A stretch of DNA of 64,000 bases from Omphalotus guepiniiformis (taxonomy: Eukaryota; Basidiomycota; Agaricomycetes; Agaricales; Omphalotaceae), in assembly GCA_028554645.1 (NCBI GenBank), contig JAQOOI010000070.1, positions 1,674,001 through 1,738,000 of the forward strand, written 5' to 3'. Both the position numbers and the translations under genes were made by a program. The notes under the pieces are model-generated. The model ran no database searches, had not been told where the DNA came from, and was given only the letters and a program-made list of their open reading frames with translations. Shown piece by piece: positions 28,287-59,355 of the stretch. Position 1 is the first letter of the stretch. The number at the start of each line of letters is the position of its first letter.

Positions 28287-28516
28287 TGTGGAAGAGTGGT
28301 CTGCCCTAAGGGTAGACCTTCCTCTTCACCTACTCCTTAAGCGTGTTACAATTCAAAATTCTTATAGATTCTAAATGTTCTTCCTTGCTCTAGATACGAC
28401 GTCATTCTTTCAAGCTCTGAATACTCTTTCCGTTATGTTTTCGTTCCATCCATTCATATCTGCTTATATTGTCTCTTTTCGTTAGATCACTCTTTCATAA
28501 GGTACTTCTGGACCGT
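28287..28516 (+). repeat. 3' LTR of element A, left part
   Basis: Repeats the first part of the 17892-18647 LTR and stops at CCGT, where element B starts. Small differences from the 5' LTR include a gap in GACGTCTCGATTC (GACGTCATTC here). The rest continues at 45046. No clear polypurine tract precedes it. Confidence 0.9.
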
Positions 28517-30362
28517 TGTTGCGTCAAAAAGCCTTTCAGTACTGAAATCTATCAGATTGAAGTAAATATGGAATGTTCAAGCATTGGAAACTGAACATAA
28601 AGGACTAGAGTCACCCCAGACTGCTAGTTAAGACATGAAACATACTTGTACTCACAATACCTAAGTGTAGTGTTTGCTACAGTACTGAATCTGGTACTAA
28701 GCAACTGTGACCAATGGGTTATACAAAGAAATACTAGTTATGCCTCTCCAGATGTGTTGGAATTCCAATGTTCCATACCAGATTGAGTTGGTCAGACCCA
28801 CCCTCTAATAACTAGAGACTCTACCAAGTGTTGTTGACTGTAATCCAAGGGGTTGATGGATTTTCACTTCAATTGAACAACTATCTAAGTCCTTTGGACT
28901 GATCAAAAGTTCCAGCTGGTCTTGCTAACTAAGTTGGCACTATAAGATTGAATGCTGAGAATATGGGCAATCTTGAAGATTGTATTACCAGAGAAATATT
29001 GTACATTGAGTACTATGTGGATATAATGTCACTGAGATGAAATGCCAATCTGTGTAATAATGGAAGTAGATTCAAAAGTTACATCTGCACAAATGAGTTA
29101 GATACTCAATACTCATGCTGGAAGGAGTTAGATACTGAAAATGAGTATCTCTCTGGATCTGAGTATCTCTCTGAAATTCAGTAACCCTCTGAACTTGATG
29201 AAAGACAAAGGCACTCTAATTGGAGGTCTTAGACGAAACTATGGGATAGAATACTGTCCTAGGAGAAGCTGAGAGCTATCCTAAACAAGAAATGTAACCT
29301 GAGTACAAATCTGACCAAAAAGAGATGTATAGGGGTAAAACTTGAAATAAACAGTTACTGTACCTTACTGTGGCTGATAGAAACGATGAAGCATGGTCTA
29401 GATAAGCTCTAGAGCTTCTACACAACTCCTAATGCTGCCCTAGTAGAGGAGGATGTGCCAATTTTGGAGAAACTCATAGGGGACCAGATTTGCAATGCAT
29501 TGAGGAGGATGTCACCTGTCAGGATACTGGTTGCTATTTACAGGTTCTGGACCTTTATTTAGATACCCTGGGTACGCCCTAACACACCTAGAACGCGGAC
29601 AAAGCGATATATTTCTGTTTTTATACCAATCTATACCCAAAGTTCCTACATTTTGACTATCTAACTGGAAAATTACCTAGAAAACTACCTAAAAAGAATC
29701 CAATCTCTGCTCAATTGATACTTACTTACTTTTGACTCATTTACTGTTCAGATTACTCTTTTAATTTCGAGATATATGTTTGATTTTATGATTTAGTATA
29801 TATAGCTTACAGAGTATCTATTTAGATTTTCTTAAGCAAGTACTGCCCAAAGCTCCAAGCCAAAGCAGGAAACCCTTCTTAGACGAAATATAGCCTGGCT
29901 CTTTAGAGTTCAGTTCGAGAAATATCCAGTTGTGAAAACTTCTGTAAAGTCCCTTGTGGCAGATAAATTGAAAGAGATACTGAATCTTTGCTGAAACTGC
30001 TGTTCTGTCTGTGCTGAATCTGCCTGCTGAAACTGTCTGTGCTGCATCTGAAACTGTTCCCTGCATTGTCTGACCATTGGATCGAGTTTAAACATCGAGA
30101 TTGATTGTCCTGAATCCCTCCTGAACCCTGAAAAACCGCCTTTACCTTCTGTCTGAATCTTGTGTTTTGAGATACCCTCTGCCATTTTTCACCCAGATTG
30201 AGATAAAGACATCTGTAACCCTGCAGATTTGAAGTTCAATTGTTGCGTCTAACTGTGCGGAATCTCTGACAACGCCAGTCACACCTCACCCTACATCATT
30301 TTTGATTTGAGTTGGATTGTGCTCATTTGAGTATCTCTCTCGTTCATTTCATAGTCACTACA
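28517..30362 (+). repeat. 5' LTR of element B (1,846 bp)
   Basis: TG...CA ends. Internal repeats of GAGTTAGATACT and GAGTATCTC type occur at about 29094-29180. The 3' part contains GTGCGGAATCTCTGACAACG, shared in diverged form with the solo LTR at 21816-23193. No long ORF; short frames here are repeated identically in the 3' LTR. Confidence 0.92.
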
Positions 30363-30364
30363 TC

Positions 30365-30382
30365 TGGAGCCCACCGCGAGGG
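30365..30382 (+). promoter_or_regulatory. Primer binding site of element B
   Basis: TGGAGCCCACCGCGAGGG lies two bases after the LTR and starts with TGG as a tRNA-complementary site should. Like the site in element A it has the pattern TGG-n3-4-CCACCGC-n-AGGG. Confidence 0.65.
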
Positions 30383-30535
30383 GTGGCTTTAGACTTGATA
30401 ATTGAACTATCTGTGTATTTACACGTGTCTGGAAATAAATCTGGACTTTTTCTGTGTTGAACTTTGCCCTGTTCCTCACTTAGCAACAATTTCCTTGAAG
30501 TTGTTGAACCATCTATAAGTTTTATAACTTAGAGT

Positions 30536-32446
30536 TTGCTTGTCAAAATTAGCAGCTCACAGAGAAACACACGTCCTAGAAAGACTAAGAATTCTGAGAG
30601 AGCTGGAACAGAAGAATTGTCACTGAACCAGTCATCCAGAAGGAAAAGTTCCAAAGGAAAAGAGAAAGAAGTCATACCTGAACCAGATTCAAGTCCACTT
30701 TCGTCTCTTTCGTCCCTAAGTACTATTCCTGAACGGAATACACCTCCAGATTTATCTGAACTCTCAGCTAGATACAAGAAAAATAAGAGGAACTTTGTTA
30801 ACAGTCCTCAATATTTTGCCTTGACACATAAAAGAATCCCTGTTAAAATAATAAGGAACCCGAGAAACAATATGTCTACTCATGACAATGCTACTGGGAA
30901 TGAAGCTCCCCAACAACAAGGACCTACCCAAGGACCTGTTGAGATGGAAGAGATCTTCATTTTTGGAAATGCAACAGGAATGCAGATTCCTGTTCCTGCA
31001 GCTAAAGAGTTGCAAAATGAGAAACTACCTAAAGTCTCTAAGCAGGCTCCCATCTTCGATAAGAAACATCCATCTGAATTGGTTGCATGGTTGGCAGAGC
31101 TGGAAGGCATCTTTGTGTCAACCGGAACTAAAACAGATGCGGCTAAAGTGATGTTGGCACTCAGATACATGGAGTTCCATACCCGTGAAGAGTTTCAACG
31201 GCTTCAAGCTGTTAAAGATTTGGATTGGGATGCTTTCAAAGAGGCATTAATGAAAAATTTCCCTGAATCTGCAGATAGAGGACTGGGATCTAGACAAAGA
31301 TTGTATGCTATCATTGATGCATATAAGCTCATAGTGCTTGGTGCTATTCAGAAACTGATGGCATTTAAAAGAGAGTATGAGATTGAGTATGAGAAACTAT
31401 CTTCTGGTACTACACCTGTAGTATCAAACTCAGAAGCTGTAGCTGGTTTCTTGAGTGCACTAGATGAACCCTTCAGAAGAAAACTTCTGGACCGTTTGGA
31501 AAACAAAGTGATCAATGGCCACTTACAAGTTCAGAGAGAGGATGACCCTTTTACTCTGAAAGATGTAATGTCTGAGGCTGAAAAACTCTGTTCTGTAAAA
31601 AGAGCAGGGGGATACAACTTTGGTTTATTCTTGAATGGTCCAAATCTGGCAGAAGGATACTCTAGGATACTCCCAACAACTGAGCAGAGTGCTACAAGGA
31701 AGTTATATGATCCTTACCAAGTAGCATCTACTGTGAAGTCAGAACCAGATCAGTGGGCAATGAAATTGTCTGCAACAGTGGATAGTCACCAGAACCAGTT
31801 TAACCAGATTAGACAAGCCCAGGAAACGAATCTGGCAGCTCTTGCAAAGCTATCTGAGACAGTTGCTAACTTGGCAAAAATGACCCAAGCAACTTCTAGC
31901 TCAGTTAGGATGAACATGAATGCTCCAAATTCCCAATCTGGACCTGGAATGAACTCTAATGGACACAATAGTGTACAAAGATCGTCCCAGATGTCATCTG
32001 TGAATAATAATACTCATGCTGACTCCAATTGCTATATATGTGATGAGCCTGGACATAGATCTATGGACTGTCCACATCAACTTAGATTTATCAGGTTGGG
32101 GTGGATGATCAAGAATAGTGCTGGTAAATGGGCATTGAAAGATGGAGTATATTGGCCAAGAGCTGATCCGTCTGATACTCGGTCTAAGAAAGAGAAGATT
32201 GAGGAAATTGCCAAAAGACATGGATGGGAACAACCCTCCTCTCATGTTGACCAGAACTTGTATGCTTTTGAAGATGAGGATTCGGCTATAGCAGGTCCCT
32301 CTCAAAGTAGTTCATTAGATGCTATCAACAGCCTTGTTGCTCAATTCAGTCAGGTTTGCAATACTTTGCAGAATCTGGCACCAGCAGCTAAATCTGAAAC
32401 TAAGCAGATTTTGAAACGAGAAAACAACTCTGAGTCGAAAAACTAG
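30536..32446 (+). CDS. Element B Gag with CCHC zinc knuckle
   Basis: Up to 636 residues; the first ATG of the frame may lie slightly inside. It has a basic, Ser-rich N-terminus and then a gag core (FDKKHPSELVAWLAELEGIF; MLALRYMEFHTREEFQRLQ; DWDAFKEALMKNFPES). Near residue 500 is the zinc knuckle CYICDEPGHRSMDC (C-x2-C-x4-H-x4-C), which binds the element RNA in related Gag proteins. The stop at 32444-32446 is 8 bp before the ATG of the protease ORF. No lesion seen. Confidence 0.88.
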   Translation: MLVKISSSQRNTRPRKTKNSERAGTEELSLNQSSRRKSSKGKEKEVIPEPDSSPLSSLSSLSTIPERNTPPDLSELSARYKKNKRNFVNSPQYFALTHKRIPVKIIRNPRNNMSTHDNATGNEAPQQQGPTQGPVEMEEIFIFGNATGMQIPVPAAKELQNEKLPKVSKQAPIFDKKHPSELVAWLAELEGIFVSTGTKTDAAKVMLALRYMEFHTREEFQRLQAVKDLDWDAFKEALMKNFPESADRGLGSRQRLYAIIDAYKLIVLGAIQKLMAFKREYEIEYEKLSSGTTPVVSNSEAVAGFLSALDEPFRRKLLDRLENKVINGHLQVQREDDPFTLKDVMSEAEKLCSVKRAGGYNFGLFLNGPNLAEGYSRILPTTEQSATRKLYDPYQVASTVKSEPDQWAMKLSATVDSHQNQFNQIRQAQETNLAALAKLSETVANLAKMTQATSSSVRMNMNAPNSQSGPGMNSNGHNSVQRSSQMSSVNNNTHADSNCYICDEPGHRSMDCPHQLRFIRLGWMIKNSAGKWALKDGVYWPRADPSDTRSKKEKIEEIAKRHGWEQPSSHVDQNLYAFEDEDSAIAGPSQSSSLDAINSLVAQFSQVCNTLQNLAPAAKSETKQILKRENNSESKN

Positions 32447-32454
32447 AGTTTCCA

Positions 32455-33852
32455 ATGAAGGAGATTGGTGAAGAAGCTGTATATACTCAGAATCCTTCTC
32501 ACAAAACAGGTCAATCTCCTGAGGAAAATAAACTTGTAAAGAAAAAGAGAGTTGAAGTGTTATTACCTACACTAAGACCATCTGAAAGGGAGAAATACAG
32601 ACCCCCTGCTATGAGAAGAGAGCCCGTTCGTTTTGAACTACCCGTTGATTCTGACACTGAGGAGATTGAATCTCCCTCTGAAAATAACAACGATGTTGCA
32701 CGGAGAGTATCTAACCGTCCGTTTGATCATGTAAAGGCAATAGATAGGCCACCTATACCAAAGGGAATGCCTGTAGGAAGCCAGAACAAGGCAAATGAGA
32801 CTGAAGGAGCTCAATCTGGAACTAAAGATGGAATGAGTAATGATACAAGGAATGCTATTGTATACACAAAGCCTCCGCGTAAATCTGAGCCCGATTTCAA
32901 GCTTAGAAACTCACTATTCAAACCGGGTCTAGCAGAAGAAATTGCAGACAAAATCTTTAGATCTGAGATAGATATAAGTAGTGGGGACCTCATTGCTATA
33001 TCTCCGGCACTTCAGAAGATTATGCAGAGAAAATTGAAGAACAACAGGGTGTATAAGCGTCCTGTAAAGGCTTTTGTTCATGAAGTAAGGGATGAAGATG
33101 ATCCTGATGGTATTCTACCAGAAGAAAATGTCAATCTGGTACAGGCAAATTATATGGTCTTTATTGAAGATATGGCCTATGAAAGGGAAGATGTGTTTAT
33201 TGTCCTAGATGAAGACACAGATGACCTTAAGAAAGGCTCAGTGGTACACAAGGATGTTGTGGACCAGTATCAGAAAGATGTACCTCCAGATGAGAGGAAC
33301 AAGATCATTATAGTAGCCAGCCAGACTGACAGTCTAAAGGCAATCTACCCAAAGATTAATCACTCTGATCAACAAGTTGAGACAGTAGTTGATAGTGGTT
33401 CTCAAATTGTGTCCATGGATACAAGAGTAGCTATTGGACTTGGTTTAAGATGGGACCCAGAGACTGTGATCCATATGCAAAGTGCAAATGGTCAATTACA
33501 GGCTACTAGGGGACTAGCAAGAAATGTACCATTTACCTTTGGAGAAATAACTATCTATATGCAGATCCACATAATAGATAAAGTGCCTTATGATGTTCTT
33601 TTGGGAAGACCATTTGATGTGTTGACAAGCAGTGTAGTCAGAAACTTTGAAACTGGAGAACAAGAGATCACCATTACAGATCCAAACAGTGGAATGAAGT
33701 GTACAATGGGAACATATGACAGAGGTAGAGGAATTAAGGTTAAACCTATTCCTGGTGAACCAAAGCTTGTCCCAGAAACACAGAAATCTGCGAGTGTCCC
33801 TGTGAAAAATGAGGGAGACTCTCAAAATTTTCATCGGACCTCAATGAACTGA
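32455..33852 (+). CDS. Element B aspartic protease ORF
   Basis: 465 residues with its own ATG. The first 300 residues are hydrophilic. The retropepsin domain lies near the C-terminus: VVDSGSQIVSMD (active-site DSG), ATRGLARNVPFTFGEI and VPYDVLLGRPFDVL. It cleaves the Gag and Pol precursors in related elements. Having the protease in a separate ORF between gag and pol, rather than fused to pol, is shared with element A and suggests translation by reinitiation. Confidence 0.86.
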   Translation: MKEIGEEAVYTQNPSHKTGQSPEENKLVKKKRVEVLLPTLRPSEREKYRPPAMRREPVRFELPVDSDTEEIESPSENNNDVARRVSNRPFDHVKAIDRPPIPKGMPVGSQNKANETEGAQSGTKDGMSNDTRNAIVYTKPPRKSEPDFKLRNSLFKPGLAEEIADKIFRSEIDISSGDLIAISPALQKIMQRKLKNNRVYKRPVKAFVHEVRDEDDPDGILPEENVNLVQANYMVFIEDMAYEREDVFIVLDEDTDDLKKGSVVHKDVVDQYQKDVPPDERNKIIIVASQTDSLKAIYPKINHSDQQVETVVDSGSQIVSMDTRVAIGLGLRWDPETVIHMQSANGQLQATRGLARNVPFTFGEITIYMQIHIIDKVPYDVLLGRPFDVLTSSVVRNFETGEQEITITDPNSGMKCTMGTYDRGRGIKVKPIPGEPKLVPETQKSASVPVKNEGDSQNFHRTSMN

Positions 33853-33887
33853 TAAGAGATCAGGGAGAGGTAGCTGTTTGCATTGAA

Positions 33888-36800
33888 ATGGATGAAGATG
33901 GCAATGCCACAATTGCTGGATATAAGCTGCCAGACAATGAATTGTTTTCAGAACCTGAAAAGGCTGAGGCATTTGTGTTTGCAGCTGAATCCATCATAAG
34001 AGAAAACGATATAGCGGCTGCAGATTCGGTTAGATCGTATTTAAATCGGTCTGTAGACTCAGAAAAGAAACAAGTGTTCTGTACCTGGCGAGAAAATTTA
34101 AATTTGAATTCAAAAGAGCACTTAGATACTCAGAATTCAGACTTAGATACTTGCACGGTACTTAATCACACTTCGGAACCCGCATCTGGAACTGAAAAGA
34201 GGATGAATAAGGGTAAAACGGTCAAAAGAGAACCGAAACCAGTCCAATCTTCAAGACCCAGATGGAGTAGAGATAAGAATGGCAACAAAATGGCCAGATT
34301 GGTGACTGTTTTGGCTTCTAGAAAGTACAAACCAGTTGCTATTAAGGTCAAACCTGTTAAAGCTACCTTACCTGCGGAGTTCCGGATTGAAAGAAAAATA
34401 ATTGGAGATCCGTTAAAAGATATGCCTGAGTTACCTACTCATCCTCCAGATTTCACTCCTGGTGAGAGGTACTCTCAAGAAAGAAAAGAAATTGTAGACA
34501 AGAATCATAATGAAGGTTTCTTATGGCCTGAAGAAATGAAACTTGTACACCATCTTATGAAAGTCCAAGAGAAAGCATTTGCATGGGAAGCATCTGAAGG
34601 AGGAACCTTTAATACAGAGTTCTTTCCTCCAGTAAAGTTTCCAGTGTTACCACACACTCCTTGGGTAGAAAGGAATATTCCTATACCTCCAGGGATCTAT
34701 GATCAAGTGTGTAAAATGATTAAGGACAAAATAGATGCTGGTGTATATGAGCCGTCCAGTTCATCCTATAGATCCAGATGGTTCTGTGTCTTAAAGAAAG
34801 ATGGAAAAAGCTTAAGATTGGTCCATAGTTTAGAACCACTCAATAAAGTGACTATTCAACATTCAGGGATTCCTCCTGCAACTGCAGATATAGCTAGAAG
34901 CTTCTCTGGAAGAGCATGTTTGGGATTACTGGATATCTTTGTTGGTTATGATGAGAGGCTGGTTGATGAAAGTTCAAGAGATCTTACAACCTTCCAAACA
35001 CCTTTTGGCCCACATAGATTAGTAAAGTTACCTATGGGTTGGACAAACTCTGTCCCTATCTATCATGATGATGTTACATATATCTTCAGAGATGAAATTC
35101 CACATGTAACTAAACCTTACATTGATGATGTACCAGTAAAAGGGCCTGTCAGCAGATATGAAACTGCAGATGGAGGTTATGAAACTATCCCTGAAAATTC
35201 TGGCATCAGAAGGTTTGTGTGGGAGCATCTGCAGAATATGAACAGAATTGTGCAAAGAATGAAACATGCTGGTGGTACCTTTGCAGGGACCAAAGCTTTC
35301 ATCTGTGTAGCTGAAGGTGATGTTGTTGGACATCATGTCAGTTATGAAGGAGAAAAGCCAGTGGAAAGGCTAGCTGAAGTTGTCCTGACTTGTGATGCAT
35401 CAAAATGGTCTGAGAAGAAAGATATCCGGTCATTTTTGGGCACTGCTGGTCAGATGAGGATGTTCATAAAGGATTATGCCAAGAAAGCGAAACCTTTGAC
35501 AATCTTAACTGGAGATGTACCTTTTCAAATGGGTCCTGCAGAACTGGAAGCTGTAGAAATGATTAAAGATGGGATCAGAAATGCTCCGGCACTTCGTCCT
35601 ATTGACTATGATTTAAGTACTGGAATCACCCTTTCAGTAGATACTTCCTGGATGGCAGTAGGTTTCCAACTATATCAGAGAGACCCTGCAGATTCAAAGA
35701 AAAAGTTCTACAACTGGATGGGTTCCATTACTTTAAATGAAAGAGAAGCAAGGTTTTCTCAACCCAAGAGAGAACTATATGGCTTGATGTTGGCCTTACA
35801 ACAAACATATTACCAGACATATGGATGTAGGGATCTTACTGTGGAAACAGATGCAAGCTATATTAAAGGAATGCTTGACAAACCCAGTAGTGGTCCCAAT
35901 GCAACTATAAACAGATGGATTGAAGAAATAAGGAAGTTCCACTTCACCTTGGTACACATCAAGGGCACTGAACATAAGGGACCAGATGGACTATCTAGAC
36001 CACCTAGAGGAACCATACCAACTGAAAGAGCGGCATCTAGAGATCCGGATTCATTTGTTGATGAAGATGATGGTCTGCCGGTGAAATTCAGAATGGGAGA
36101 TGGTGAATCTGAGGTACCCTTTGATTTTGAAGCCTTTAAAGATGAAATAGATACTCGAGGTGGTTACTTGCAGGAAGTTGCAAAGTCAATAGACGACTTT
36201 GAGGACGATTTGCAAGAAGCTCTTGAAGAAGAACGTCACTTGAATTCCATTAGAGAGCTGTTAGCAACTCAACATCCAGTATCTAACTCGATGTTGCAAT
36301 TTGCACAGACTTTGGTTATACCTGAAGGAGGTACTGAATGGAAACATGAACACCCATATAGAGAGGATCACAGATCTGCATCTACAAAGGAACTGGATGA
36401 ACAACTAGACCTAATCAAAGATTGGTACCTGCAGGGCAATCAGCCTCTAGCTCACTTAGGTGAGACTGCTATGAAAAAGTTCATTTCCAGGGCTGTAAAG
36501 TTCTTTGTAGACAGAGATGGGAGACTCTATAGAAGGAATGATGATACAGGAGGCCAGCATAGACTGGTTGTGCCTAAAGAGAAAAGGATGTACATGATGC
36601 ATGCTGCTCATGACCATCTGGGACATAAAGGAATGTTTGCAACAAAAGCTCTCATAGAGAAGCGTTTTTGGTGGCCAGATTTGAATGGAGATGTCAATTG
36701 GTTTGTCAAATCCTGCCAAATCTGCCAGAACCGAAAATTAGAATTGTTGAAGATTCCCCCTACTCTTACACACACTCCCTCCCTGTTTCAAAAGATTCAT

Positions 36801-37931
36801 GTAGATGTGTTCAAAGTATCACCTCCAAGTAATGGTTGCAAGGATGTTGTACATGGCAGATGTGCACTCTCATCCTGGTCTGAAGGAAGAGCCTTAAGAT
36901 CTGACAATGCTAGATCATTGGGAGAATGGTTCTTTGATGATATTATATGCAGATGGGGATGTCCTGATGAAGTAGTAACTGATAATGCACCCCAGATGCG
37001 AGCTATGCTTAAATGGCTAGAAGATAAATATGGAATTAAAGGAATTACTATATCTCCTTACAATTCCCAAGCAAATGGCAAGATTGAGAGAGCCCACTTT
37101 GACATTAGAACTGCCTTGGCAAAAGCTACAGGTGGAGATCTAAAGAGATGGTGGTGGTTTCTCAAACATGTCTTCTGGGCAGATAGAATTACAGCTAGAA
37201 AAGGACTTGGATGTTCACCATACTTCCTTGTTACTGGAGCTGAACCTATCCTACCCTTGGATATTGTTGAATCTACATGGTTAGTAAAACTTCCAGATAG
37301 AATCTTGACATATGAGGAACTTATTGGCTATAGGGCACAAGCTCTAGCTAAGCATAGAACCCATGTGCAGGAAATGATATCTAGAATTGATACAACCAAG
37401 AAAGAGACTCTTAGACAATATGAAGAAGAATACAGAAATGTTATCAGAGACTTTGATTTCAAACCTGGTACACTTATCCAAGTCAGAAATACACAAGTTG
37501 AGAAGAACTTGGACAGAAAGATGTATCCTAGGTACCTGGGACCCATGATTGTAATAAGGAGAACCAAAGGGGGATCCTACATTGTGGCCCAGATGGATGG
37601 TACAGTACTCAGAGAAAAGGTTGCGGCCTTCAGAGTACTACCCCATGTAGCTAGATATGAACCAATTCAACTGCCTGAGCACATTCATGAACTTATAGAC
37701 TTGACTAGTGAACAACTAGAAGAGATGGTCAATGATAACAATGAGTTAGACCCTGAACTTGAGAGAGATTACATCTTTGACAGTATTCCTCAACTGAGAA
37801 TTCCTGCTGAAGATGAAGATCTTGATGAGTCCAGTGATGAAGAACTACAATCTGCAAACGATGCAGATGAAGAAGAACCAGATTGGGACGCTCCAGTCCA
37901 GACCAGGTCTCAATCTTCACAAAATAAATGA
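33888..37931 (+). CDS. Element B Pol: reverse transcriptase, RNase H, integrase
   Basis: 1,347 residues, intact. After an N-terminal linker comes RT (SSYRSRWFCVLKKDGKSLRL; LLDIFVGYDERL; LPMGWTNSV; active site PYIDDVPVKGP; IRSFLGTAGQMRMFIKDY), RNase H (SVDTSWMAVGFQLYQ; LNEREARFSQPKRELYGLML; ETDASYIKGML), an integrase zinc domain (HDHLGHKGMFATKALIEKRF; CQICQNRK), a D-D-E core (IHVDVFKV; VTDNAPQM; NGKIERAH) and a GPY/F-type end (YLGPMIVIRRTKGGSYIV). No chromodomain is seen. The acidic C-terminus ends at 37931. All catalytic residues are present, so this protein could support transposition of B and of related copies. Confidence 0.92.
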   Translation: MDEDGNATIAGYKLPDNELFSEPEKAEAFVFAAESIIRENDIAAADSVRSYLNRSVDSEKKQVFCTWRENLNLNSKEHLDTQNSDLDTCTVLNHTSEPASGTEKRMNKGKTVKREPKPVQSSRPRWSRDKNGNKMARLVTVLASRKYKPVAIKVKPVKATLPAEFRIERKIIGDPLKDMPELPTHPPDFTPGERYSQERKEIVDKNHNEGFLWPEEMKLVHHLMKVQEKAFAWEASEGGTFNTEFFPPVKFPVLPHTPWVERNIPIPPGIYDQVCKMIKDKIDAGVYEPSSSSYRSRWFCVLKKDGKSLRLVHSLEPLNKVTIQHSGIPPATADIARSFSGRACLGLLDIFVGYDERLVDESSRDLTTFQTPFGPHRLVKLPMGWTNSVPIYHDDVTYIFRDEIPHVTKPYIDDVPVKGPVSRYETADGGYETIPENSGIRRFVWEHLQNMNRIVQRMKHAGGTFAGTKAFICVAEGDVVGHHVSYEGEKPVERLAEVVLTCDASKWSEKKDIRSFLGTAGQMRMFIKDYAKKAKPLTILTGDVPFQMGPAELEAVEMIKDGIRNAPALRPIDYDLSTGITLSVDTSWMAVGFQLYQRDPADSKKKFYNWMGSITLNEREARFSQPKRELYGLMLALQQTYYQTYGCRDLTVETDASYIKGMLDKPSSGPNATINRWIEEIRKFHFTLVHIKGTEHKGPDGLSRPPRGTIPTERAASRDPDSFVDEDDGLPVKFRMGDGESEVPFDFEAFKDEIDTRGGYLQEVAKSIDDFEDDLQEALEEERHLNSIRELLATQHPVSNSMLQFAQTLVIPEGGTEWKHEHPYREDHRSASTKELDEQLDLIKDWYLQGNQPLAHLGETAMKKFISRAVKFFVDRDGRLYRRNDDTGGQHRLVVPKEKRMYMMHAAHDHLGHKGMFATKALIEKRFWWPDLNGDVNWFVKSCQICQNRKLELLKIPPTLTHTPSLFQKIHVDVFKVSPPSNGCKDVVHGRCALSSWSEGRALRSDNARSLGEWFFDDIICRWGCPDEVVTDNAPQMRAMLKWLEDKYGIKGITISPYNSQANGKIERAHFDIRTALAKATGGDLKRWWWFLKHVFWADRITARKGLGCSPYFLVTGAEPILPLDIVESTWLVKLPDRILTYEELIGYRAQALAKHRTHVQEMISRIDTTKKETLRQYEEEYRNVIRDFDFKPGTLIQVRNTQVEKNLDRKMYPRYLGPMIVIRRTKGGSYIVAQMDGTVLREKVAAFRVLPHVARYEPIQLPEHIHELIDLTSEQLEEMVNDNNELDPELERDYIFDSIPQLRIPAEDEDLDESSDEELQSANDADEEEPDWDAPVQTRSQSSQNK

Positions 37932-38132
37932 TAAACACACTATATTTGAACAAAGTAAGAGATAGACACTGAAAAGTGACTACCTAACTGCAGATGAAAG
38001 TAAAAAGTGGGTAACAGTAGTATGCACTACTAAGATAAACATAAAGGGTGTCTGAGGATGTCCTATACGATGTACCAATACTGTGTAAACTGCCCATAAA
38101 TGATGCTGAGATGTCCAGATGTAACATTAAAG
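37932..38132. other. Spacer between pol and the convergent antisense gene
   Basis: 200 bp between the pol stop and the stop of the minus-strand gene at 38133; it should hold the 3' ends of both transcripts. Nothing else seen. Confidence 0.4.
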
Positions 38133-39527
38133 TCAGAGAATGTCTGCAGATGGAAATGCATGGAAAGGAGCTGGATCATCAGCAGTACCTGGACCAGACT
38201 CCAAGGGACTCTGGTTGGCCCTGTAAGCCTTCTCCTTCTGTCTTCGGAGCAATTCCAGACGGGAAAACTCCTTGTAGGCAAATCTGTACTGAGAATGATG
38301 ATACTGAATGGCATGTTGATGAACACTGAGTTCTGTCTTCAAGAAGTTGGAAATTGATTGAAGAACCTCAGGAGAGAAGTGGTCCAAGTCCATGAAAGGG
38401 AACAGAGCAGTGATACGAGTCACAATCTCTTCTCCACTCTCCCGGAGTTTGCGCTCATCTGCAGGATAATTGAGTTAGATACTCGAAAAAGCCGCAGATT
38501 GGGTGACTACTCACGGTCTGTCTCCTCTCTAAGGTTGACGATTGGGTTCTCAATCCGAGGCTTCTTCATGACAATCACCTTGTGGGGCTCAGGAATAGGT
38601 TCATTCTACATGAACATTTATAGTCAGTACATAAAACTGCATGAATATCTCCAGATGGAACTAAAAACTTACATCTTTGAGTCCAACTGAGGTGGCCTGT
38701 AAGAGTGACCATGGTACATCAGTCTAGAGAAACGAATGAACAGTTCTGAACATAAATCTGCTTACCCTTGGAGAAGTAATTACTACTTTTTCCTTGGAAG
38801 ACTTATGAACTGTGGTAGTAGTGGGAGAACCTTTGGTTTTGTCCTTGCTAGAGTCCTTGTTATCCTTATTGGGAGCGTGGATCGACGCAGAAAGCCCAAG
38901 GGAAGGTCCATCTGCCATCTAAGAAAAGAAAGACCATGTTGAGATTCGAGTTAGGTACTCAGGAGTTAGATACTTACAGTAACGTCTCCGTCACCAGTAA
39001 TGACCTCAATCTCTTCATCGTCATCATCGTCATCCTCAATAAGTTCGGGAGTTTTAGCTGGCTACACACCAATAGGCAGTTAGATACTCGAAATGAGAGG
39101 GATGGTCAATAAAAACGTACTTTGCGCTTCTTAGACCCACTGAGAGTCTCTCTGCGCTTTGCCAAGTCGTCCCGGAAAGCTTTAATGGCGGAGAAAGTGT
39201 CAGGTTCACCTACAGATGGGAACTTTTTGACTGCATCTGCGACCAGATTGACACCTTTGTCGAACAAAGTGAACGCTTCCTCGGACTTAGCAACTGCATA
39301 TGCAGGCAGAGACTTCTTCTGTAATAAGAAATCAAGTTAGATACTGGACCTGGAATCAAAGATTGAACATTTACAAGATGACTAGCAAGGGCTGTAATAA
39401 GCATCCCAAGTAGTTCAGTATCCGCATCTTTGGCCTCCATGGCTCCAGTAGCTCGAGAAAGATATCGCTGCGTTGTGGCAACCCACTCAGGACGCTCAGG
39501 CCAAGTCTTGGGACCTTTAGGGGCCAT
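38133..39527 (-). CDS. Antisense gene 2 of element B: 7-exon gene of unknown function
   Basis: About 351 residues from ATG 39527. Exons: 39375-39527, 39121-39318, about 38978-39061, 38766-38918, a 51-nt exon near 38680-38735, about 38514-38608, and a last exon from near 38462 to the stop at 38133. All introns start GT, end AG, and phases agree throughout. Several introns carry AGTATCTAACT as a likely branch site. The protein starts MAPKGPKTWPERPEW with a helical segment, then a basic stretch (AKRRETLSGSKKRK), a poly-Asp/Glu run, Lys/Ser/Thr-rich low complexity, and a C-terminal helical part (FPFMDLDHFSPEVLQSISNF). No known domain is recognised. It lies wholly inside a retrotransposon, antisense to pol. 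Confidence 0.72.
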
Positions 39528-40368
39528 AACTGTAAAATATAGAGATAGAGAAATGATAAAAGTGGAAGGGTTGTAGAACCAAGTGATAGATGGTGCTGAG
39601 TCGTTCTGAATCTGCGCTGCACCTTTTATATCTGGTCTACCCCGTCTAAATCTGCAAGTTGGTCATTACTCCTATGCTGTTCAAACAGGCACAATGAGGC
39701 CTAGCCAGCGTAGCAGATTGATCAACGGGGACGTTGAAGTTAATTTTACTTGGGGGGAGAGAGCACACAAAGTTTACAAGGCCAAAAATTTTGAATTTTT
39801 GAAATTTCAAATATCTCAAATCTGGAGATCTAGACAGCTTTGACCGCAGAGGACTTAGCCGAATAGCATTGCCGAGTAATCGAAAAGCTCTCAACCTTGA
39901 CAGAAAGGACTTATTAAATTCAATGTATCCTCAAAAAGAAATGATACTTATTGAAAATTGTGGGCTTAAGTCATTTAAAGAATTGTTTCCCTCTAAAATC
40001 GAGTTAGATACTCAATTTGAAGGAGACTCTCAAATTTATTTCTTATGTTTCACACCAGATTCATACCAAGAAAAACGAAACGTATATTTGAGCATGAAAA
40101 GCTCAGTACTACAATAAGAGATACTTCGACCTATACTACTATAAAGTAAGTACAGGGAGTATCTACAGAAAAAGCGATGTATAAAATTTTTATATATTTG
40201 GGCAACCTGGTGTGTTGAACACCAAGGTCACCCGCGACGAGATGCGAACGAATACGGCAGGTCCCAGCCAATCGAAGAAAGCGACAGATCTGTGAGATTG
40301 GGACTGAGAGATGGAGAAAGTAAAGGGAAAAAGGGGTACGAACTATGCGTGCACCCGAGCCTTGAAAG
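39528..40368. other. Spacer between the two antisense genes
   Basis: About 840 bp: the promoter side of antisense gene 2 and the 3' side of antisense gene 1. AT-rich in the middle, with one GAGTTAGATACTC motif near 40001. A short plus-strand open frame (39869-40117) has no recognisable similarity and is not called. Confidence 0.4.
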
Positions 40369-42891
40369 TCACTCTGAGAGGGGATCGTCCCTCCCAGCTA
40401 GTGGACTGCTTTCTGGCACCAGTACCTTGCCGGCTGTCTCCTCCTCCAGCTCGTCTTCCTTGTCTTCGTCCTCTTCGACCGTGACTTGCGAAGCACCGAC
40501 CGCCTGAGGCGATTCGTCGATGTCAGCTGTAGCAACGGGAGTGGAACGGATATTGGAAGGACCGGGCTGCGGCTCGACCTCTGGATCCACCACGATGAAA
40601 TGACCTGATTCGTTCCTAGCGATATAGCTTGCTCGAGACACCAGGTTGATGTCCCATCCAAGCGCGGTAGCCAGTAGTTTGAGCTGTTCGTCCGAATAGT
40701 CGAACGACGGGTCGCCAGTCTGAACCTGATGTAAAACGAGACGAGGATCGCGACACGAAGCTTTGATATGATCTTGACGCTGCAAAATCGTTCGGTGTAC
40801 CCGTTCCATCGCCCGCATCTGCGCGGAGACGCTGTTCTGCATGTCCTTGTAGGTGTCGATGAGAATCTGCAACTGCTCAGCTTCCTGAGAGACAACTAAG
40901 AAACGAAGAACCTTTAATAAAAGAGGTCTAAGGAAATGAAAGGAATACTTACCTGTACTGCCGCTGCGAGCCAATGTGTATGAAAGGCATCGCAACTGAT
41001 CGCTGCCTTCCAAACCGTACGACCAGCTACAGGTATGATTGTCCTTCGCGCAAGTCGCGCAGCGCCATTCGAAAGTCTTGCTGTTGAACTGAGGACGGCA
41101 TTCTCTACCTTCAGTGTGAGTACCGCCGACGCAGGCAGCACAAATAGAGTCGCCGAAGAACTAAAGAGCGACGAAAAGAAAAATTAGCGGGTATCAATCG
41201 CGATTCAGAGAGATACTTACCCGATCGAATGTGCGGTTGACTGAAATGAGTTGCTGTAAAGTAACAGGACGGCCATAAGGCCATCCAAAGACAACACGGC
41301 CTGTAAAAGAACCGTTAAACAAACACTAGAAAAATGAAATAAAAGAGACACTTACCGGGTATCGCTTCAAAGTCCTCCTTCGCACGATTTTGAGGTGTTC
41401 GTCCATCCGATCGCTAAGGAAAGGCATGGTCAGTAAAAGGAAATGAAATAAAAAGAAATGACAAGACTTACTTGAAGATTTGGGGCCTCGTAACGAGTGC
41501 CCGGAGCAAGAGAAACAGAAGAAGTAGAGAAATCAGCGCGAGAAGCCCATAGAGGTGCCTCGAAGTCGACGTTAAGATTGACTGGGGCTTTAGTACCCTC
41601 AGTCTTGACTGCTTTCTCATCTTCCTTCTTCTCCTCTTCCTCGTCGCTGGATGCAGGAACAGTAATTGAAGTCGCCTTGGAGCGAGTCTTTCGAGACGCT
41701 GGGTCATCGGCAGGCTCTTCCACACGCATCTTCCGAATCTTCGGTTTTGGCTTGACCACCTGTTTACCCTTGCCCTGTGTAAGAAAACATGAGAAAAGAA
41801 TAAATAAGTCTATAAGGAAACGTACCTTTGAAGCTGCAGCTGCAGGCTTCTTACCCTCAGAAACGCGAGACTTCTTGACCGGAGGCTCAGAGTTCTCGGA
41901 CTCGAAGTCAGTATCATCGTCGTCGGTCAGCTCAGTAGATTCGGCCGTGGCTTCAACGTCGGAGATCTTGCGTTTCATCTAAAAATGATAAAATAAGAAG
42001 GACCTCTTCAAACAAAAAGAAAAGACATACCGAACGACCCGGTAAGGGCGTTACACTAGTCTTGGCCTTTGGCTTTGGCTTTGGCTTTGGTTTTGAAACC
42101 GGTGCCGAAACCTTCGAAGATTCAGCGCGAGCAACCTTGGCGGACGAAGCAAGTGTGGCGAGAGGCGGGAGTAAGATCTCATCGTCGTCGTTGTCTTCCT
42201 CGAGCTGCGGAGTTTGCTTAAGCTTAGGAAATGGAGGTAGTGGTTCCCACAAATTGCGAAGCTGTAAAGAGTTAGCAAAAGAAATGAAAACCAGTCTGAG
42301 AGATACTTACTGTATACTTGAGGCAGAAAGAGTCAAGTTTAGCGCGATTTAGCCCCCAGGGCGGCACAATAAATGACGTTGGCTTTGCCTGATGTAGCCA
42401 TAAGGCGAGATTGCATGCAGAAAGAAAGGAGCCAGTAAAATAGTCGGGGAGATGTGTATGTGCCCGCTGGCACCGATTGAAAGTCAAAGCAACGCGAGTC
42501 TGTAAAGATGAGGTTAGCTATAACAAAGATGAAAAGAAATTGGTGCCTACCAAGGCAAGATTCAAGTCGTCAAAGGCGGAGGTAATGGTTTTCAACCTGA
42601 GACCCTTGCCGAAATCCTTAAACGATTGATCTCGTAGACGTCGGTCCAAGTCGCCTAGCCTTGAAACGATGGCGGAAAGAGCCTTGTAATCTTCTTCGTT
42701 CATGTCTGAGAGCTGTGAGAGGGAAAAGAAAAGAAAGAGGCCGTCAATTGAGAGCGGTTCTCGAATATATATGTGACACACTGTGAAAAGCAGCGCGTGA
42801 GAGAAAGGAATTAAAAAGGACTTACCGGTGCCTCGGAAGGTTCCCTACTGAGAGTGATAGAGGAAGCCAATTGCCTTGAAAAGTCATCCAT
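40369..42891 (-). CDS. Antisense gene 1 of element B: 10-exon gene with a Cys cluster, unknown function
   Basis: About 658 residues from ATG 42891. Exons: 42826-42891, 42551-42712, 42311-42499, 42031-42261, 41826-41978, 41472-41774, 41356-41413, 41221-41300, 40953-41160 and 40369-40895. Their lengths sum to 1,977 nt with all phases matching. The N-terminal 140 residues are helical (MNEEDYKALSAIVSRLGDL; FNRCQRAHTHLPDYFTGSF). Then come Lys-Pro repeats, acidic and basic low-complexity stretches that look nuclear, and at residues 421-458 six cysteines in C-x2-C-x10-C-x12-C-x2-C-x6-C, a probable zinc-binding cluster. A coiled-coil-like segment (EAEQLQILIDTYKDMQNSV) and an acidic tail follow. It could be a nuclear DNA- or chromatin-binding protein (inference). 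No named family is recognised. Confidence 0.75.
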
Positions 42892-43195
42892 CGGGGGACG
42901 AAGTGAGATGTGAAGAGAAAACGAGAATCACTGTCTGTTTAAGTCGAAACTTCGACAGAAGTAGATAGCGGGTTTCGCCGAAGTCTGACATTGCCGTCAC
43001 ATGCCGATGTAAATGTATTGACTGGCGATCAATCGAGAAAAGTTTTGCCTAAAGGCAGTCCGTGAAACGTGATATTGTGATATTGAACAGTACGAAATGC
43101 GCTTCTATGACCAATCTGCTAGTAATAATTGTATCTAACTCGATTTTGGCCAATCTGGTACGATCGGGGACGATCTTATTTTACTTTGGGGGAGA
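42892..43195. promoter_or_regulatory. Probable promoter region of antisense gene 1; ends in the polypurine tract
   Basis: 300 bp between the minus-strand start codon and the 3' LTR. If the antisense gene has its own promoter, it lies here or in the LTR read in reverse. GGGGGAGA at 43188-43195, directly before the LTR, is the plus-strand polypurine tract used for second-strand priming. Confidence 0.5.
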
Positions 43196-45041
43196 TGTTG
43201 CGTCAAAAAGCCTTTCAGTACTGAAATCTATCAGATTGAAGTAAATATGGAATGTTCAAGCATTGGAAACTGAACATAAAGGACTAGAGTCACCCCAGAC
43301 TGCTAGTTAAGACATGAAACATACTTGTACTCACAATACCTAAGTGTAGTGTTTGCTACAGTACTGAATCTGGTACTAAGCAACTGTGACCAATGGGTTA
43401 TACAAAGAAATACTAGTTATGCCTCTCCAGATGTGTTGGAATTCCAATGTTCCATACCAGATTGAGTTGGTCAGACCCACCCTCTAATAACTAGAGACTC
43501 TACCAAGTGTTGTTGACTGTAATCCAAGGGGTTGATGGATTTTCACTTCAATTGAACAACTATCTAAGTCCTTTGGACTGATCAAAAGTTCCAGCTGGTC
43601 TTGCTAACTAAGTTGGCACTATAAGATTGAATGCTGAGAATATGGGCAATCTTGAAGATTGTATTACCAGAGAAATATTGTACATTGAGTACTATGTGGA
43701 TATAATGTCACTGAGATGAAATGCCAATCTGTGTAATAATGGAAGTAGATTCAAAAGTTACATCTGCACAAATGAGTTAGATACTCAATACTCATGCTGG
43801 AAGGAGTTAGATACTGAAAATGAGTATCTCTCTGGATCTGAGTATCTCTCTGAAATTCAGTAACCCTCTGAACTTGATGAAAGACAAAGGCACTCTAATT
43901 GGAGGTCTTAGACGAAACTATGGGATAGAATACTGTCCTAGGAGAAGCTGAGAGCTATCCTAAACAAGAAATGTAACCTGAGTACAAATCTGACCAAAAA
44001 GAGATGTATAGGGGTAAAACTTGAAATAAACAGTTACTGTACCTTACTGTGGCTGATAGAAACGATGAAGCATGGTCTAGATAAGCTCTAGAGCTTCTAC
44101 ACAACTCCTAATGCTGCCCTAGTAGAGGAGGATGTGCCAATTTTGGAGAAACTCATAGGGGACCAGATTTGCAATGCATTGAGGAGGATGTCACCTGTCA
44201 GGATACTGGTTGCTATTTACAGGTTCTGGACCTTTATTTAGATACCCTGGGTACGCCCTAACACACCTAGAACGCGGACAAAGCGATATATTTCTGTTTT
44301 TATACCAATCTATACCCAAAGTTCCTACATTTTGACTATCTAACTGGAAAATTACCTAGAAAACTACCTAAAAAGAATCCAATCTCTGCTCAATTGATAC
44401 TTACTTACTTTTGACTCATTTACTGTTCAGATTACTCTTTTAATTTCGAGATATATGTTTGATTTTATGATTTAGTATATATAGCTTACAGAGTATCTAT
44501 TTAGATTTTCTTAAGCAAGTACTGCCCAAAGCTCCAAGCCAAAGCAGGAAACCCTTCTTAGACGAAATATAGCCTGGCTCTTTAGAGTTCAGTTCGAGAA
44601 ATATCCAGTTGTGAAAACTTCTGTAAAGTCCCTTGTGGCAGATAAATTGAAAGAGATACTGAATCTTTGCTGAAACTGCTGTTCTGTCTGTGCTGAATCT
44701 GCCTGCTGAAACTGTCTGTGCTGCATCTGAAACTGTTCCCTGCATTGTCTGACCATTGGATCGAGTTTAAACATCGAGATTGATTGTCCTGAATCCCTCC
44801 TGAACCCTGAAAAACCGCCTTTACCTTCTGTCTGAATCTTGTGTTTTGAGATACCCTCTGCCATTTTTCACCCAGATTGAGATAAAGACATCTGTAACCC
44901 TGCAGATTTGAAGTTCAATTGTTGCGTCTAACTGTGCGGAATCTCTGACAACGCCAGTCACACCTCACCCTACATCATTTTTGATTTGAGTTGGATTGTG
45001 CTCATTTGAGTATCTCTCTCGTTCATTTCATAGTCACTACA
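43196..45041 (+). repeat. 3' LTR of element B (1,846 bp)
   Basis: Same length and, in every stretch compared, the same sequence as 28517-30362. Followed by the CCGT duplication. Confidence 0.92.
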
Positions 45042-45045
45042 CCGT

Positions 45046-45568
45046 AGCCGAATCACTCGATATTCGCCCCACCGAACCTGCCGCGCGCGTCCTGCCTTGG
45101 GAAAGTAGAAAAGAGGGCTGGCGACCCTCCGATGTTGCTGCGCAGGGGATCCATGTCTGGTGGCAAGCCGGTGTCGAGCTAGGACGCGACGGAAAGGACT
45201 CTTTTTGGGAATAACCCTCATGGTCACATGTCCGCGTATTTACCGTATTCACTCATTTCTCGCGATTGTAACCTGTCAAGTAGCTCTATAAAATGGGGAG
45301 CCCTGGTTTATTGGGGCTTCGTCTTGTACCCCCACCTTAATTCTGTAATTCGAGCCCTTTCTCCTGAGCCTCAAGAGCCCTCCGTTTCATCGAGAACTAA
45401 CAGTTGAGCTTTACATTGATTTATTTCACTGATTACCATTATCTAGGTTTCGTCATCGCAGCGAACAAAAGTTCTAATCAACTGATCGTGCTGCTGTCGT
45501 TACGTGCCTCAAGCCCGACCGACCACTCCTTCCCTTTTTCTTTGGGTAGACTCCAAGTCTCTTCCTCA
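45046..45568 (+). repeat. 3' LTR of element A, right part
   Basis: Continues the LTR interrupted at 28516, after the second copy of the CCGT duplication (45042-45045), and ends CTTCCTCA at the NLR junction. A TATAAAAT box is conserved near 45286. Confidence 0.9.
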
Positions 45569-49088: not shown

Positions 49089-50846
49089 ATGGTCTGTGTT
49101 TTTTCCTTCACAAAGAGGACTTGCAACTGAGAAATGCTATCAGATCGACAGCCAGTACTGGGCTGCTACTGCGGTGACCACGGGTCTATCTTTGTACATC
49201 GTCATTTCATATACCCTGCAGGTGTGTCTCTTTGAAATTTTTTGAGAATTTGCCGCCCTATAACCTGACACTGACGAGGTATTTTGTAGCATTTGCGAAT
49301 CATCAGCCACCGGACTTCGGAAGGACTGAGTCCGTCATATCTTTTTGTGAATGTGATCGGCTTTACATCCAATGCTCTCATTGTGATGCTTCAATCCTCT
49401 CTCGACTCTCATGAATCTCAAAAGATACCCGTGAAATGGGGTGTTTTACCCTATTGTTCACTCTTTGTACGTACGCCAATCCCGGAAGATAATTCCCGTA
49501 TCTCATTTAAACAATTCATACAGTCGAGCTTGATTTGTCCAGATATGAACACTATGATCCTGTTGACTATCCTTCCATGGGTCATGGTTTCCACAACGTA
49601 CGTGATTCTCTCGTGCATCATGAGCATCCAAAGTTCAACCTCGTTTAGGTTCATCCTATATTTTATATATTTTCCTCAGTATCTGAAACCTCGCGATGTG
49701 AACGCGAACGCAGACTCGGAGAACGCAGGCACTCCGCTAAACAGGCCTTACCCCAACTTAGACCATGAACGGAGCGTATCATTCGTTTTAGGCCTGACGG
49801 CTGTTATCTCTCTGTACGTGCTGCGTGCTTCTACTCAAAAAGTAGCCTTACCTTATTAAGTTTTTCACTCTAGAATCGTCGGTTTAACTTTTACGACCTG
49901 CGTATGGGTCGCATATTCGCACTCCCCAAATCAGACGCTACCGCCGTTTGTGCACCGATGGACGACTTTTCTCAGCATGATCTCTGTGCTCTTCTCCGTG
50001 GTACAATGGATTCCTCAGATTGTATACACGTACCGCCTGAAGCTTGTCATGGCGTTGAGCGTCCCTGGGCTGTGTTTTCAGACTGTAGCGGCTATTTTCA
50101 TGTGTATACTTACCGCTGTGAGGTACAAAATTTTCTTTCCGTAAGGAATGCCCTCACTCACATTTCGATATTCCTCATCTATGTGCCTTACTCCTCTCCG
50201 CCACTCTTCAAGTAAACCTTGGACATCTTGGATCGCCATGACAGTATCCAGCATACTTCAGCTTGTTCTTCTCAGCTTGTGCTTAGCCTGTATACTCCGC
50301 TGCAGACGCCTTCATATCGATGACTATGGGAATCCCCTAGTAAAACCTGGCGAAAGGACACATACATCCGCAGCATCTTCTACCACTAGGTACGGCGCCA
50401 TCGTGAATTTCAACTCGCGGCCAGGTGTAGCGGACACGGACGGAGTATCTGTTGGCTCTAGCGATGCACTGCTCGCAGCCGAGCATATAATAGCGGCGGA
50501 AGGAAGCGGAAGCGGAGCATCAGACAGTCAGACGCTGCGGAGACATAAACGCCCTGAATGCGTAACAGATCTACAGTCTGGAGAACGGGATGATAGAGGA
50601 GGAGTTTCTATAGAGGAGATGGATGCTATGGATGGAGCCGGTAAAGGGGAGGGTACGTCCACCGCGGAGTTGGATGCGCTCACGCGGGGATCCTGTGATT
50701 GTGAAGAAAGTGAGGGCGCACTTGAAGGGCTTGCTAGCAATGAGTCGACTCCGATGGACATGGACAAGAGAAGGTCTTCTAGGCCGAAGAGGTCAGGCAA
50801 GGCACGGAAGCAGCCTAGAAGTGAGGTTGTGTGGTTTGCGATGTAA
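49089..50846 (+). CDS. PQ-loop repeat membrane protein, paralogue, first PQ motif altered
   Basis: Exons encode YWAATAVTTGLSLYIVISY, then TLQ and, after an intron, HLRIISHRTSEGLSPSYLFV; further membrane segments (TILPWVMVSTTYVILSCIMS); the second repeat VVQWIPQIVYTYRLKLVMAL; WTSWIAMTVSSILQLVLLSL; and a long hydrophilic C-terminus ending near 50846. The first motif reads TLQ rather than the PQ of the neighbour. Start choice: ATG 49089 with a 40-nt intron gives MKCYQIDSQY in frame; this is uncertain. Several splice sites in the middle (49400-49900) are also uncertain, so decay cannot be excluded. It lies convergent to the sedolisin gene, forming one duplicated cassette. Confidence 0.68.
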
Positions 50847-50999
50847 AGCTTTGGGGTTATGTATTACAGTGCGGAGAGGTCGCTCAGTATGTACGAATGT
50901 CGAAATCAAAGTTGTCCATGGGAGGATATTTCACGAATCGTAAATATTTTAGATTAGTCCATGGAGGGTATACAGTTAGCATCAGATAATTTACTTGTT

Positions 51000-53663: not shown

Positions 53664-53723
53664 GGCTGACGTTGGATAAGAGGTTACCTCGATCCACAAG
53701 AATCGCGAACCCGTTCGACATCC

Positions 53724-53735
53724 TTTATATATAAA
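53724..53735 (-). promoter_or_regulatory. TATA box of sedolisin copy 1
   Basis: TTTATATATAAA lies about 60 bp upstream of the start codon and is conserved at the same distance in copy 2. Confidence 0.7.
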
Positions 53736-55403: not shown

Positions 55404-56570
55404 CTATCAGATCGACAGCCAGTATTGGGCTGGTGCTGCTGTGACCACAGGTCTGTTTTTGTACATCATCATTTCATATACCCTGCATGTGTGACTCTTT
55501 GAATTTTTTTGAGAATTTGCTGCCCTATTTATTACCTGACACTGACGAGGTATTTTGTAGCACTTGCGAATCATCAGCCACCGGACTTCGGAAGGACTGA
55601 GTCCATCATATTGTTCTGACTATGATCGACTTTACATCCAATGCTCTCATTGTGATGCTTGGGTTATGGTTGCCACAACGTAAGTGATTTTCTCGTGCAT
55701 CATGAGCATTCAAAATTCAACCTCGTTTAGATTTCATGTATTTCCCTCAGATACCAGTATCTGAAACCTCGCGATGTGAAGCGAACGCAGGCTCTCAGGC
55801 CATACCCCAACTTAGCGTATCATTCACTTTAGGCCTGGCGGCTGTTATCTCTCTGTACGTGCTGCGTGCTTCTACTTTAAAAGTAGCCTTATTTCATTAA
55901 GTTTTCCACTCTAGAATTTTCGGTTTGACTTTGACGACCTGCGTATGGGTCGCATATTCGCACTCCCAAAATCAGACGCTACGCCGTTTGTTCACCGATG
56001 GGCAACTTTCCTCGGCATGATCTCTGTGCTCTTCTCCGTGGTACAATGGATTCCTCAGATTGTGTACACGTACCGCATGAAGCTTGTCATGACGTTGAGC
56101 ATCCCTGGGCTGTGTTCTCAGACTGTAGCGGCTTTTTTGCATGTGTATATCTACCGCTGTGAGGTATGAAGATTTCTTTCCGTAATTAATGCCCTCCACG
56201 TACATTTCGATATTCCGCATCTTACTCCTCTCCGCTACTCTTCAAGTAAACCTTCGACATCTTGGATCGCCATGACAGTATCCAGCATCCTTCAGCTTTT
56301 TCTTCTCTTCTTATGCTTAGCCTGTATAATCCAGACGCTTTCATATCGATCCCCTCGTAATACCTAGCGAAAGGACACATACATTCGCAGCGGAATTGGA
56401 AGCGCTCAGGCGGAGATCTTGTGAATGTGAAGGAAGTGAGGGTGCACTTAAGGGTTTGCTAGCAACGAGTCGACTCTGATGGAGATGATTAAGAAAAATT
56501 CTTCTAGACTGAAGAGGAAGAGGTCACACGGAAGCAGCCTAGAATTGAGGTCGTGTGGTCTGCGATGTAA
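55404..56570 (+). pseudogene. PQ-loop gene relic of copy 2
   Basis: Starts with YQIDSQYWAGAAVTTGLFLY and SYTLH, parallel to the copy at 49089, but the middle exons are shortened by several deletions (near 55610-55680 and 55720-55820). The frame breaks repeatedly. The best remaining stretch is VVQWIPQIVYTYRMKLVMTL. Most of the hydrophilic C-terminus is gone; the last codons up to TAA 56568-56570 survive. The first PQ motif has become TLH. Confidence 0.82.
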
Positions 56571-56601
56571 AGTATTGGGGTTATACTTTACATCGCAGAC
56601 C
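56557..56601. repeat. Perfect 19-bp stem hairpin at the end of the PQ-loop relic
   Basis: GGTCTGCGATGTAAAGTAT (56557-56575), a 7-nt loop TGGGGTT, and the exact reverse complement (56583-56601). It overlaps the last codons of the relic and lies between convergent genes. Copy 1 (about 50835-50880) shows only an imperfect version. Confidence 0.8.
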
Positions 56602-59296: not shown

Positions 59297-59355
59297 GGCT
59301 GACGTTGGATGAAAGGTAACCTCAATCCACAAGAATTGCGCATCGTTCGACCTCC

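Follow-up and report, generated by a model that had tools for sequence, protein, structure and literature searches.

Can a retrotransposon own genes that are interrupted by many introns, and if so, what might such genes do for it? The question is raised by a 64,000-nucleotide stretch of the genome of the fungus Omphalotus guepiniiformis (the window, whose numbering is used for all positions below), in which a long terminal repeat (LTR) retrotransposon occupies 28517-45041. We propose that a lineage of Ty3/gypsy type owns a cassette of two multi-exon genes, B and then A, placed between pol and the 3' LTR, where they would be read in the opposite direction to gag-pol. Copies of these genes were compared across the host assembly (42.5 Mb in 80 contigs).

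Two antisense genes between pol and the 3' LTR

Between the stop codon of pol and the 3' LTR lie 5264 bp, which contain both genes on the strand opposite to gag-pol. A mechanical splice model, with GT-AG introns of 42-130 nt and the reading frame preserved, gave gene B 10 exons and 658 amino acids (40369-42891, minus strand; exons 42891-42826, 42712-42551, 42499-42311, 42261-42031, 41978-41826, 41774-41472, 41413-41356, 41300-41221, 41160-40953 and 40895-40369) and gene A seven exons and 342 amino acids (38133-39527, minus strand; exons 39527-39375, 39318-39121, 39061-38978, 38918-38766, 38696-38673, 38605-38515 and 38458-38133). The initial annotation had placed two antisense multi-exon genes in this 5.2-kb gap, with which the splice model agrees, and its outer coordinates, 38133-42891, are exact; the 10 exons and 658 codons that it gave to gene B and the seven exons of gene A also stand, but its length of about 351 codons for gene A gives way to the 342 of the splice model. 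The exon count of gene B depends on the settings, as a looser intron penalty adds an intron inside exon 9 and a stricter first setting with a shorter maximum intron yielded nine exons. The longest stop-free stretch in the sense direction between pol and the 3' LTR is 162 codons.

Selection on both genes among copies

Compared from copy to copy, genes A and B behave like spliced, translated genes, and both proteins are under purifying selection. The assembly contains 33 matches to 38133-42891, including 28 full-length ones (the window's own counted); these 28 copies (L009-L036, 378 pairs) form the alignment used here, with the five partial matches left out. Mean pairwise divergence at codon positions 1, 2 and 3 was 0.0051, 0.0026 and 0.0337 in gene A and 0.0285, 0.0152 and 0.1259 in gene B, the third position varying 4-13 times as much as the other two; introns diverged by 0.041 in gene A and 0.062 in gene B. 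The ratio of nonsynonymous to synonymous divergence (dN/dS) between copies, which the initial annotation had asked for, was 0.067 for gene A and 0.103 for gene B when pooled, pointing to selection on the proteins. The value for pol is similar: comparing its 3' 2 kb between the window copy and 18 others gave a mean dN of 0.0034 and dS of 0.055, a ratio of about 0.06, with L026 dropped because its alignment was broken.

Insertions and deletions follow the exon limits as well. Exons showed 18 gap patterns, 12 of which are not multiples of three, each in a single copy, and all four patterns common to at least two copies are multiples of three; in introns, 33 of 41 patterns are not multiples of three. 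Chance open frames were considered and ruled out by the codon-position and indel evidence. Of the 28 copies, 27 have gene A free of stops and frameshifts, and 25 keep all of its splice dinucleotides as well; for gene B the numbers are 23 and 22. Searches for co-occurrence and for last exons returned the best candidates only: among the matches listed, the last exon of gene A lies 2.1-2.4 kb downstream of the reverse transcriptase (RT)/ribonuclease H (RNase H) region in 50 of 54 places at at least 96% identity, and 60 of 61 matches to that exon have no internal stop. The initial annotation had named element copies without the genes, or with stops throughout them, as evidence against it; A is downstream in 50 of the 54 places listed, and among the 28 aligned copies A is intact in 27 and B in 23.

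The cassette in other element families

Both genes recur in more distant elements. Element groups at 96-100%, 81-83% and 75-77% identity were recovered with the RT/RNase H region, and one member of each outer group was examined, L037 (83%) and L038 (76%), the latter over 4.0 kb only. Each carries B and then A, antisense, at the same place as in the window element. Over the aligned parts, protein A is 34% identical to the window's in L037 (E 1e-40) and 29% in L038 (E 2e-18), and protein B is 29.5% (E 5e-25) and 27% (E 7e-17) identical, respectively, with all six homologous pairs scoring 19-58 standard deviations above shuffles. A tblastn search with A was significant in L037, whose gene A has seven exons with intron phases equal to the window's, the introns having been chosen by the splice model; the models of L038 gene A and, in L037 as in L038, of the 5' portion of gene B are less sure. 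Among the matches listed, 31 RT/RNase H places are at 81-83% identity, and 27 of them have a homologue of L037 gene B lying 4.2-4.4 kb downstream. The exceptions in these lists, 4 of 54 RT places without A and 4 of 31 without B, are in some cases partial copies. Since two other element families have homologues of both genes, ordered and oriented alike, this comparison makes A and B accessory genes of long standing in the lineage. Of the two roles that the initial annotation had offered, passengers kept by selection or genes useful to the element, selection is borne out, and the second fits better, since the homologues in those two families occupy the same place.

We infer either that divergence is faster in the cassette than in pol or that lineages exchange the cassette. 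A subfamily within the first group has the last exon of gene A at 77-80% identity and that of gene B at 56-60%. The copies of gene B in L009-L036 are mosaics in which blocks of about 0% divergence adjoin blocks of 20-50% at third positions, a pattern which indicates that exchange happens. Pooled synonymous divergence per site is 0.18 in gene B and 0.05 in gene A, the value for B exceeding that of its own introns. A special mutation process was considered for this high value and dropped, since by segment the gene is a mosaic, which we attribute to recombination among lineages of the element. Three copies of the second group with RT/RNase H scores of 799.6-800 bits (L037: 800) have gene B only 56-57% identical to that of L037, which suggests swapped cassettes.

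Structure and recent insertion of the element

Judged from its two LTRs, its target duplication, its gag-protease-pol order and the position of RNase H before integrase, the element is of the Ty3/gypsy type. The 5' LTR (28517-30362, plus strand) and 3' LTR (43196-45041, plus strand) are identical and 1846 bp long; the former starts with TG, ends with CA and is followed by a primer-binding-site-like stretch, and a purine-rich tract stands just 5' of the latter. Comparison with an empty-site paralogue, the target without the insertion (17892-18647, plus strand; 97.0% to 28287-28518 and 98.9% to 45041-45568), identified a 4-bp target-site duplication, CCGT, at 28513-28516 on the left and 45042-45045 on the right (plus strand). 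The identical LTRs, CCGT flanks and empty-site paralogue indicate that the antisense genes and the rest of the element moved recently as one unit.

The plus strand encodes a gag frame with a zinc knuckle (30533-32446; PF00098 just above cut-off), an aspartic protease frame (32434-33852; PF13650 and PF13975 above cut-off) and a pol frame with RNase H and integrase zinc-binding domains (33813-37931; PF17917, PF17919 and PF17921 above cut-off). Pfam places RNase H at 601-709 of pol, ahead of the integrase zinc finger at 920-975, with an integrase core match below cut-off and no RT hit at E<=1; the RT part contains a YIDD motif, at what we take to be the expected RT position. The three genes are in three frames, overlapping at 32434-32446 and 33813-33852 with a -1 shift needed at each, and a heptamer, AAATTTT, lies within the second overlap in register with the protease frame. 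A search of IMG/VR found no relative of the RT/RNase H region, and Rfam at gathering scores gave no match within 28-46 kb. Elsewhere in the window, 16426-17891 is a tandem-like array that matches itself, with about 85% identity, at offsets that are multiples of 120 bp, and the neighbouring blocks 49137-54864 and 55404-60333 are 81-90% identical in several pieces, perhaps a duplicated gene region.

Features of proteins A and B

Protein A has a basic KKRK followed by an acidic run, EDDDDDDEE, and its conserved C-terminal part is predicted to form long helices (predicted local distance difference test, pLDDT, 78). Protein B runs from basic and acidic low-complexity sequence through a six-cysteine cluster, a predicted helix and a conserved region to an acidic tail (model pLDDT 66), an arrangement that recalls fungal DNA-binding regulators. 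The cluster, C-x2-C-x10-C-x12-C-x2-C-x6-C and then the predicted helix, is encoded in exon 9 of gene B (40953-41160, minus strand). Across members it reads C-x2-C-x8..10-C-x8..12-C-x2-C-x6-C, with five of the six cysteines aligning in all seven exon sequences and the third offset. The Zn_clus profile matched one of seven members, at a non-significant E of 0.36. Foldseek with the six-cysteine region gave GAL4 as its top match at E 4.4, which is not significant, and there was no VIA match; in a profile search of the PDB with the cluster, the PHD protein DPF3 came top at E 0.17 and a Zn2Cys6 protein, presumably AlcR, reached 5.3, neither being significant. Searches of a protein library with A, with B and with a three-sequence A alignment found no relative, a weak negative given the lack of a positive control and the uncertain coverage of fungi.

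Repeated words in noncoding DNA

A word of the AGTATCTAACT type lies at 38472-38484 (minus strand) in intron 6 of gene A, with others at about 38963, 39077, 39334 and 40001 and, in the LTR, at 29095 and 29125. AGTATCT has 22 sites in the element (28517-43195), including seven in the LTR (0.41 expected; a maximum of three in 200 shuffles) and nine between pol and the 3' LTR (0.73 expected, a maximum of five in shuffles), and it is absent from the 3006 nt of antisense coding DNA. Per kb, this amounts to 10.9 sites in the introns of gene A, 3.8 in the LTR, 3.7 in the introns of gene B, 3.6 in intergenic DNA, 0.8 in gag-pol and 0 in antisense coding DNA. AGTATCTAACT is a possible target of the A and B proteins. 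Weighing against such a target, several intron AGTATCT sites coincide with splice donors or branch-point-like CTAAC, enrichment of AGTATCT extends to gag-pol (six sites, 1.34 expected, a maximum of five in shuffles), and AGTATCTAACT sites are just slightly better conserved than other noncoding DNA (0.024 vs 0.038; 27 copies, L026 out).

Genome-wide, GAGTATCTAACTC occurs 327 times vs 0 for its reversed control, and ACTTCGNCGAA 294 times vs 180 for its control, a mild excess; among 100 places listed for ACTTCGNCGAA, seven pairs are 13.57-13.60 kb apart, as two LTRs would be expected to be. The core word of AGTATCTAACT is absent from L037, where the palindrome TTCGNCGAA occurs five times. This palindrome stands at 42974-42984 of the window (minus strand), 83-93 bp upstream of gene B, and upstream of both L037 genes (about 382 and 3291), and it is possibly a shared promoter element. 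TTCG-N-CGAA has five occurrences in L037, against a maximum of four in 40 shuffles. The palindrome GAGT-N5-ACTC occurs three times, a number reached by 14 of 40 shuffles.

Possible roles of the cassette

Introns that are antisense to the genomic RNA of a retroelement escape splicing. Those of A and B would survive reverse transcription and be inherited by each insertion because they are not spliced from the genomic RNA, and an antisense transcript would be spliced and translated into A and B. From their composition, with basic stretches beside acidic runs and the six-cysteine cluster, helix and acidic tail of B, the two proteins would be nuclear, and a nuclear or chromatin role fits both this composition and the six-cysteine motif. 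Binding to DNA or chromatin of the element itself, with control over whether it is transcribed or silenced, would be their most likely activity. The strong difference between families combined with constraint within one would be explained if A and B regulate their own element. We consider it probable that A and B, encoded by a conserved antisense cassette, act in the nucleus to regulate the copies of their own element.

Several observations weigh against this reading. Gene B is broken in 5 of 28 copies (L024, L032, L033, L034 and L026, the last with A broken as well; in L024, exon 10 of gene B contains a stretch whose frameshift is compensated), and a splice dinucleotide is lost in otherwise good frames of L017 (B) and of L022 and L035 (A). 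The tblastn search with A was not significant against L038, where the predicted protein alone was, and the start of L037 gene A was picked by likeness to the window. Neither A nor B has a Pfam domain above cut-off, and fold searches with both gave no significant match. Zn2Cys6 clusters have the spacing C-x2-C-x6-C-x5..12-C-x2-C-x6..8-C, and that of gene B departs from it with a first loop of 8-10 residues, not 6; it resembles Zn2Cys6 but does not pass, and its weak matches are split between Zn2Cys6 and PHD-type proteins.

The evidence of selection would fit equally well if A and B were true element proteins that act within the particle or take part in replication or integration, for instance in nuclear import or target choice, and the long C-terminal helices predicted for A could be structural. 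We regard such a role as possible but doubtful, as a separate antisense unit gives no obvious route into the particle and the acidic and basic composition and the six-cysteine cluster would suggest the nucleus. It is also compatible with dN/dS between copies that the cassette is kept because its proteins serve the fungus, but many intact, mobile and mosaic copies fit selection at the level of transposition better than one host locus, and we give a host benefit little credence.

The antisense RNA itself could be the functional product, regulating the sense RNA, with the open frames incidental. Ty1 is described as regulated by antisense RNAs (PMC12786077), and passages of a review of accessory open reading frames leave such a function possible (PMC7264820). 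Constraint that tracks codon positions, reading frame and exon limits argues against RNA as the sole function, as does the shortness of the opposite sense frame; an additional role for the RNA is possible, but as the whole explanation it is very improbable. The same review documents gene capture by retroelements (PMC7264820), and the cassette could in that case consist of captured host genes carried unused, or of a nested second mobile element. Against such neutral passengers stand the purifying selection between copies, the same position of the cassette in three element families and the element-like series that A matches form with pol in 50 of 54 cases among those listed, and we find this explanation scarcely credible.

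Relation to known systems

Antisense accessory open reading frames between pol and the 3' LTR (aORF-3R) are described for plant elements, namely gene23 of Grande, RIRE2, Retand and PvRetro13, and GENE23 of Grande is a nuclear protein with its own upstream promoter (PMC7264820). The likeness is one of description, and here there are two genes, of 10 and 7 exons, whereas introns go unmentioned in the passages of the review on aORF-3R (PMC7264820). Plant aORF-3R are antisense coding regions at this position, found in most copies and about equal in conservation to the remaining proteins of the element, and the window element has the corresponding features: an antisense coding region, present in most copies and, from its substitution pattern, under selection. 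In fungi, brtn of Boty was reportedly described by Zhao in 2011, according to papers that cite that work. Boty, or BcGypsy1, of Botrytis cinerea carries brtn as an antisense gene (PMC7264820, PMC8365987). Like the window element, Boty is of gypsy type, comes from a fungus and has antisense coding DNA in the gap that separates pol from the 3' LTR; it has one gene only, and the likeness drawn here is one of organisation. HBZ of human T-cell leukaemia virus type 1 (HTLV-1) is an antisense gene of an LTR element that is spliced and encodes a nuclear regulator, differing in belonging to a retrovirus and in its type of protein. The 3' LTR of HTLV has an antisense promoter (PMC7264820).

Full-text literature searches found, among the papers listed and as judged by title or the opening of the abstract, no multi-intron antisense gene pair in LTR elements, a weak negative because subscription literature was thinly covered. 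Antisense accessory open reading frames are already known; what looks new is a conserved cassette of two genes and 17 exons whose divergence is much faster than that of pol. The selection analysis goes beyond open frames in indicating that an LTR lineage keeps multi-intron antisense genes over family-level divergence. Strand would then act as a rule for the genes that a retroelement can own, as antisense ones may keep their introns, and the presence of intact and broken gene copies in one genome makes the function of an antisense accessory protein directly testable.

The regulatory reading also invites comparison with the VANC proteins of VANDAL transposons, of which VANC21 of Arabidopsis binds YAGTATTAY within its own family, in introns, intergenic DNA and terminal noncoding DNA (PMC5735166). 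VANC proteins, like A and B, are element-encoded, family-specific and fast-diverging (PMC5735166, PMC10398659), and a short word repeated in the introns, intergenic DNA and terminal noncoding DNA of the element and scarce in its relatives may be a further likeness. VANDAL elements are plant DNA transposons for which binding and anti-silencing are shown, whereas here the likeness is organisational, with no homology claimed. By analogy, we tentatively suggest, as an unlikely and the boldest extension, that family-specific A and B proteins would recognise short words in their own LTR, introns and intergenic DNA and prevent silencing, a VANC-like system that would have evolved independently. If so, an arms race would have left its trace in the fast divergence of the proteins and in the words, AGTATCTAACT in one group and, at LTR spacing, ACTTCGNCGAA in another, and sequence-specific anti-silencing, so far known from plant DNA transposons, would have evolved in a retroelement.

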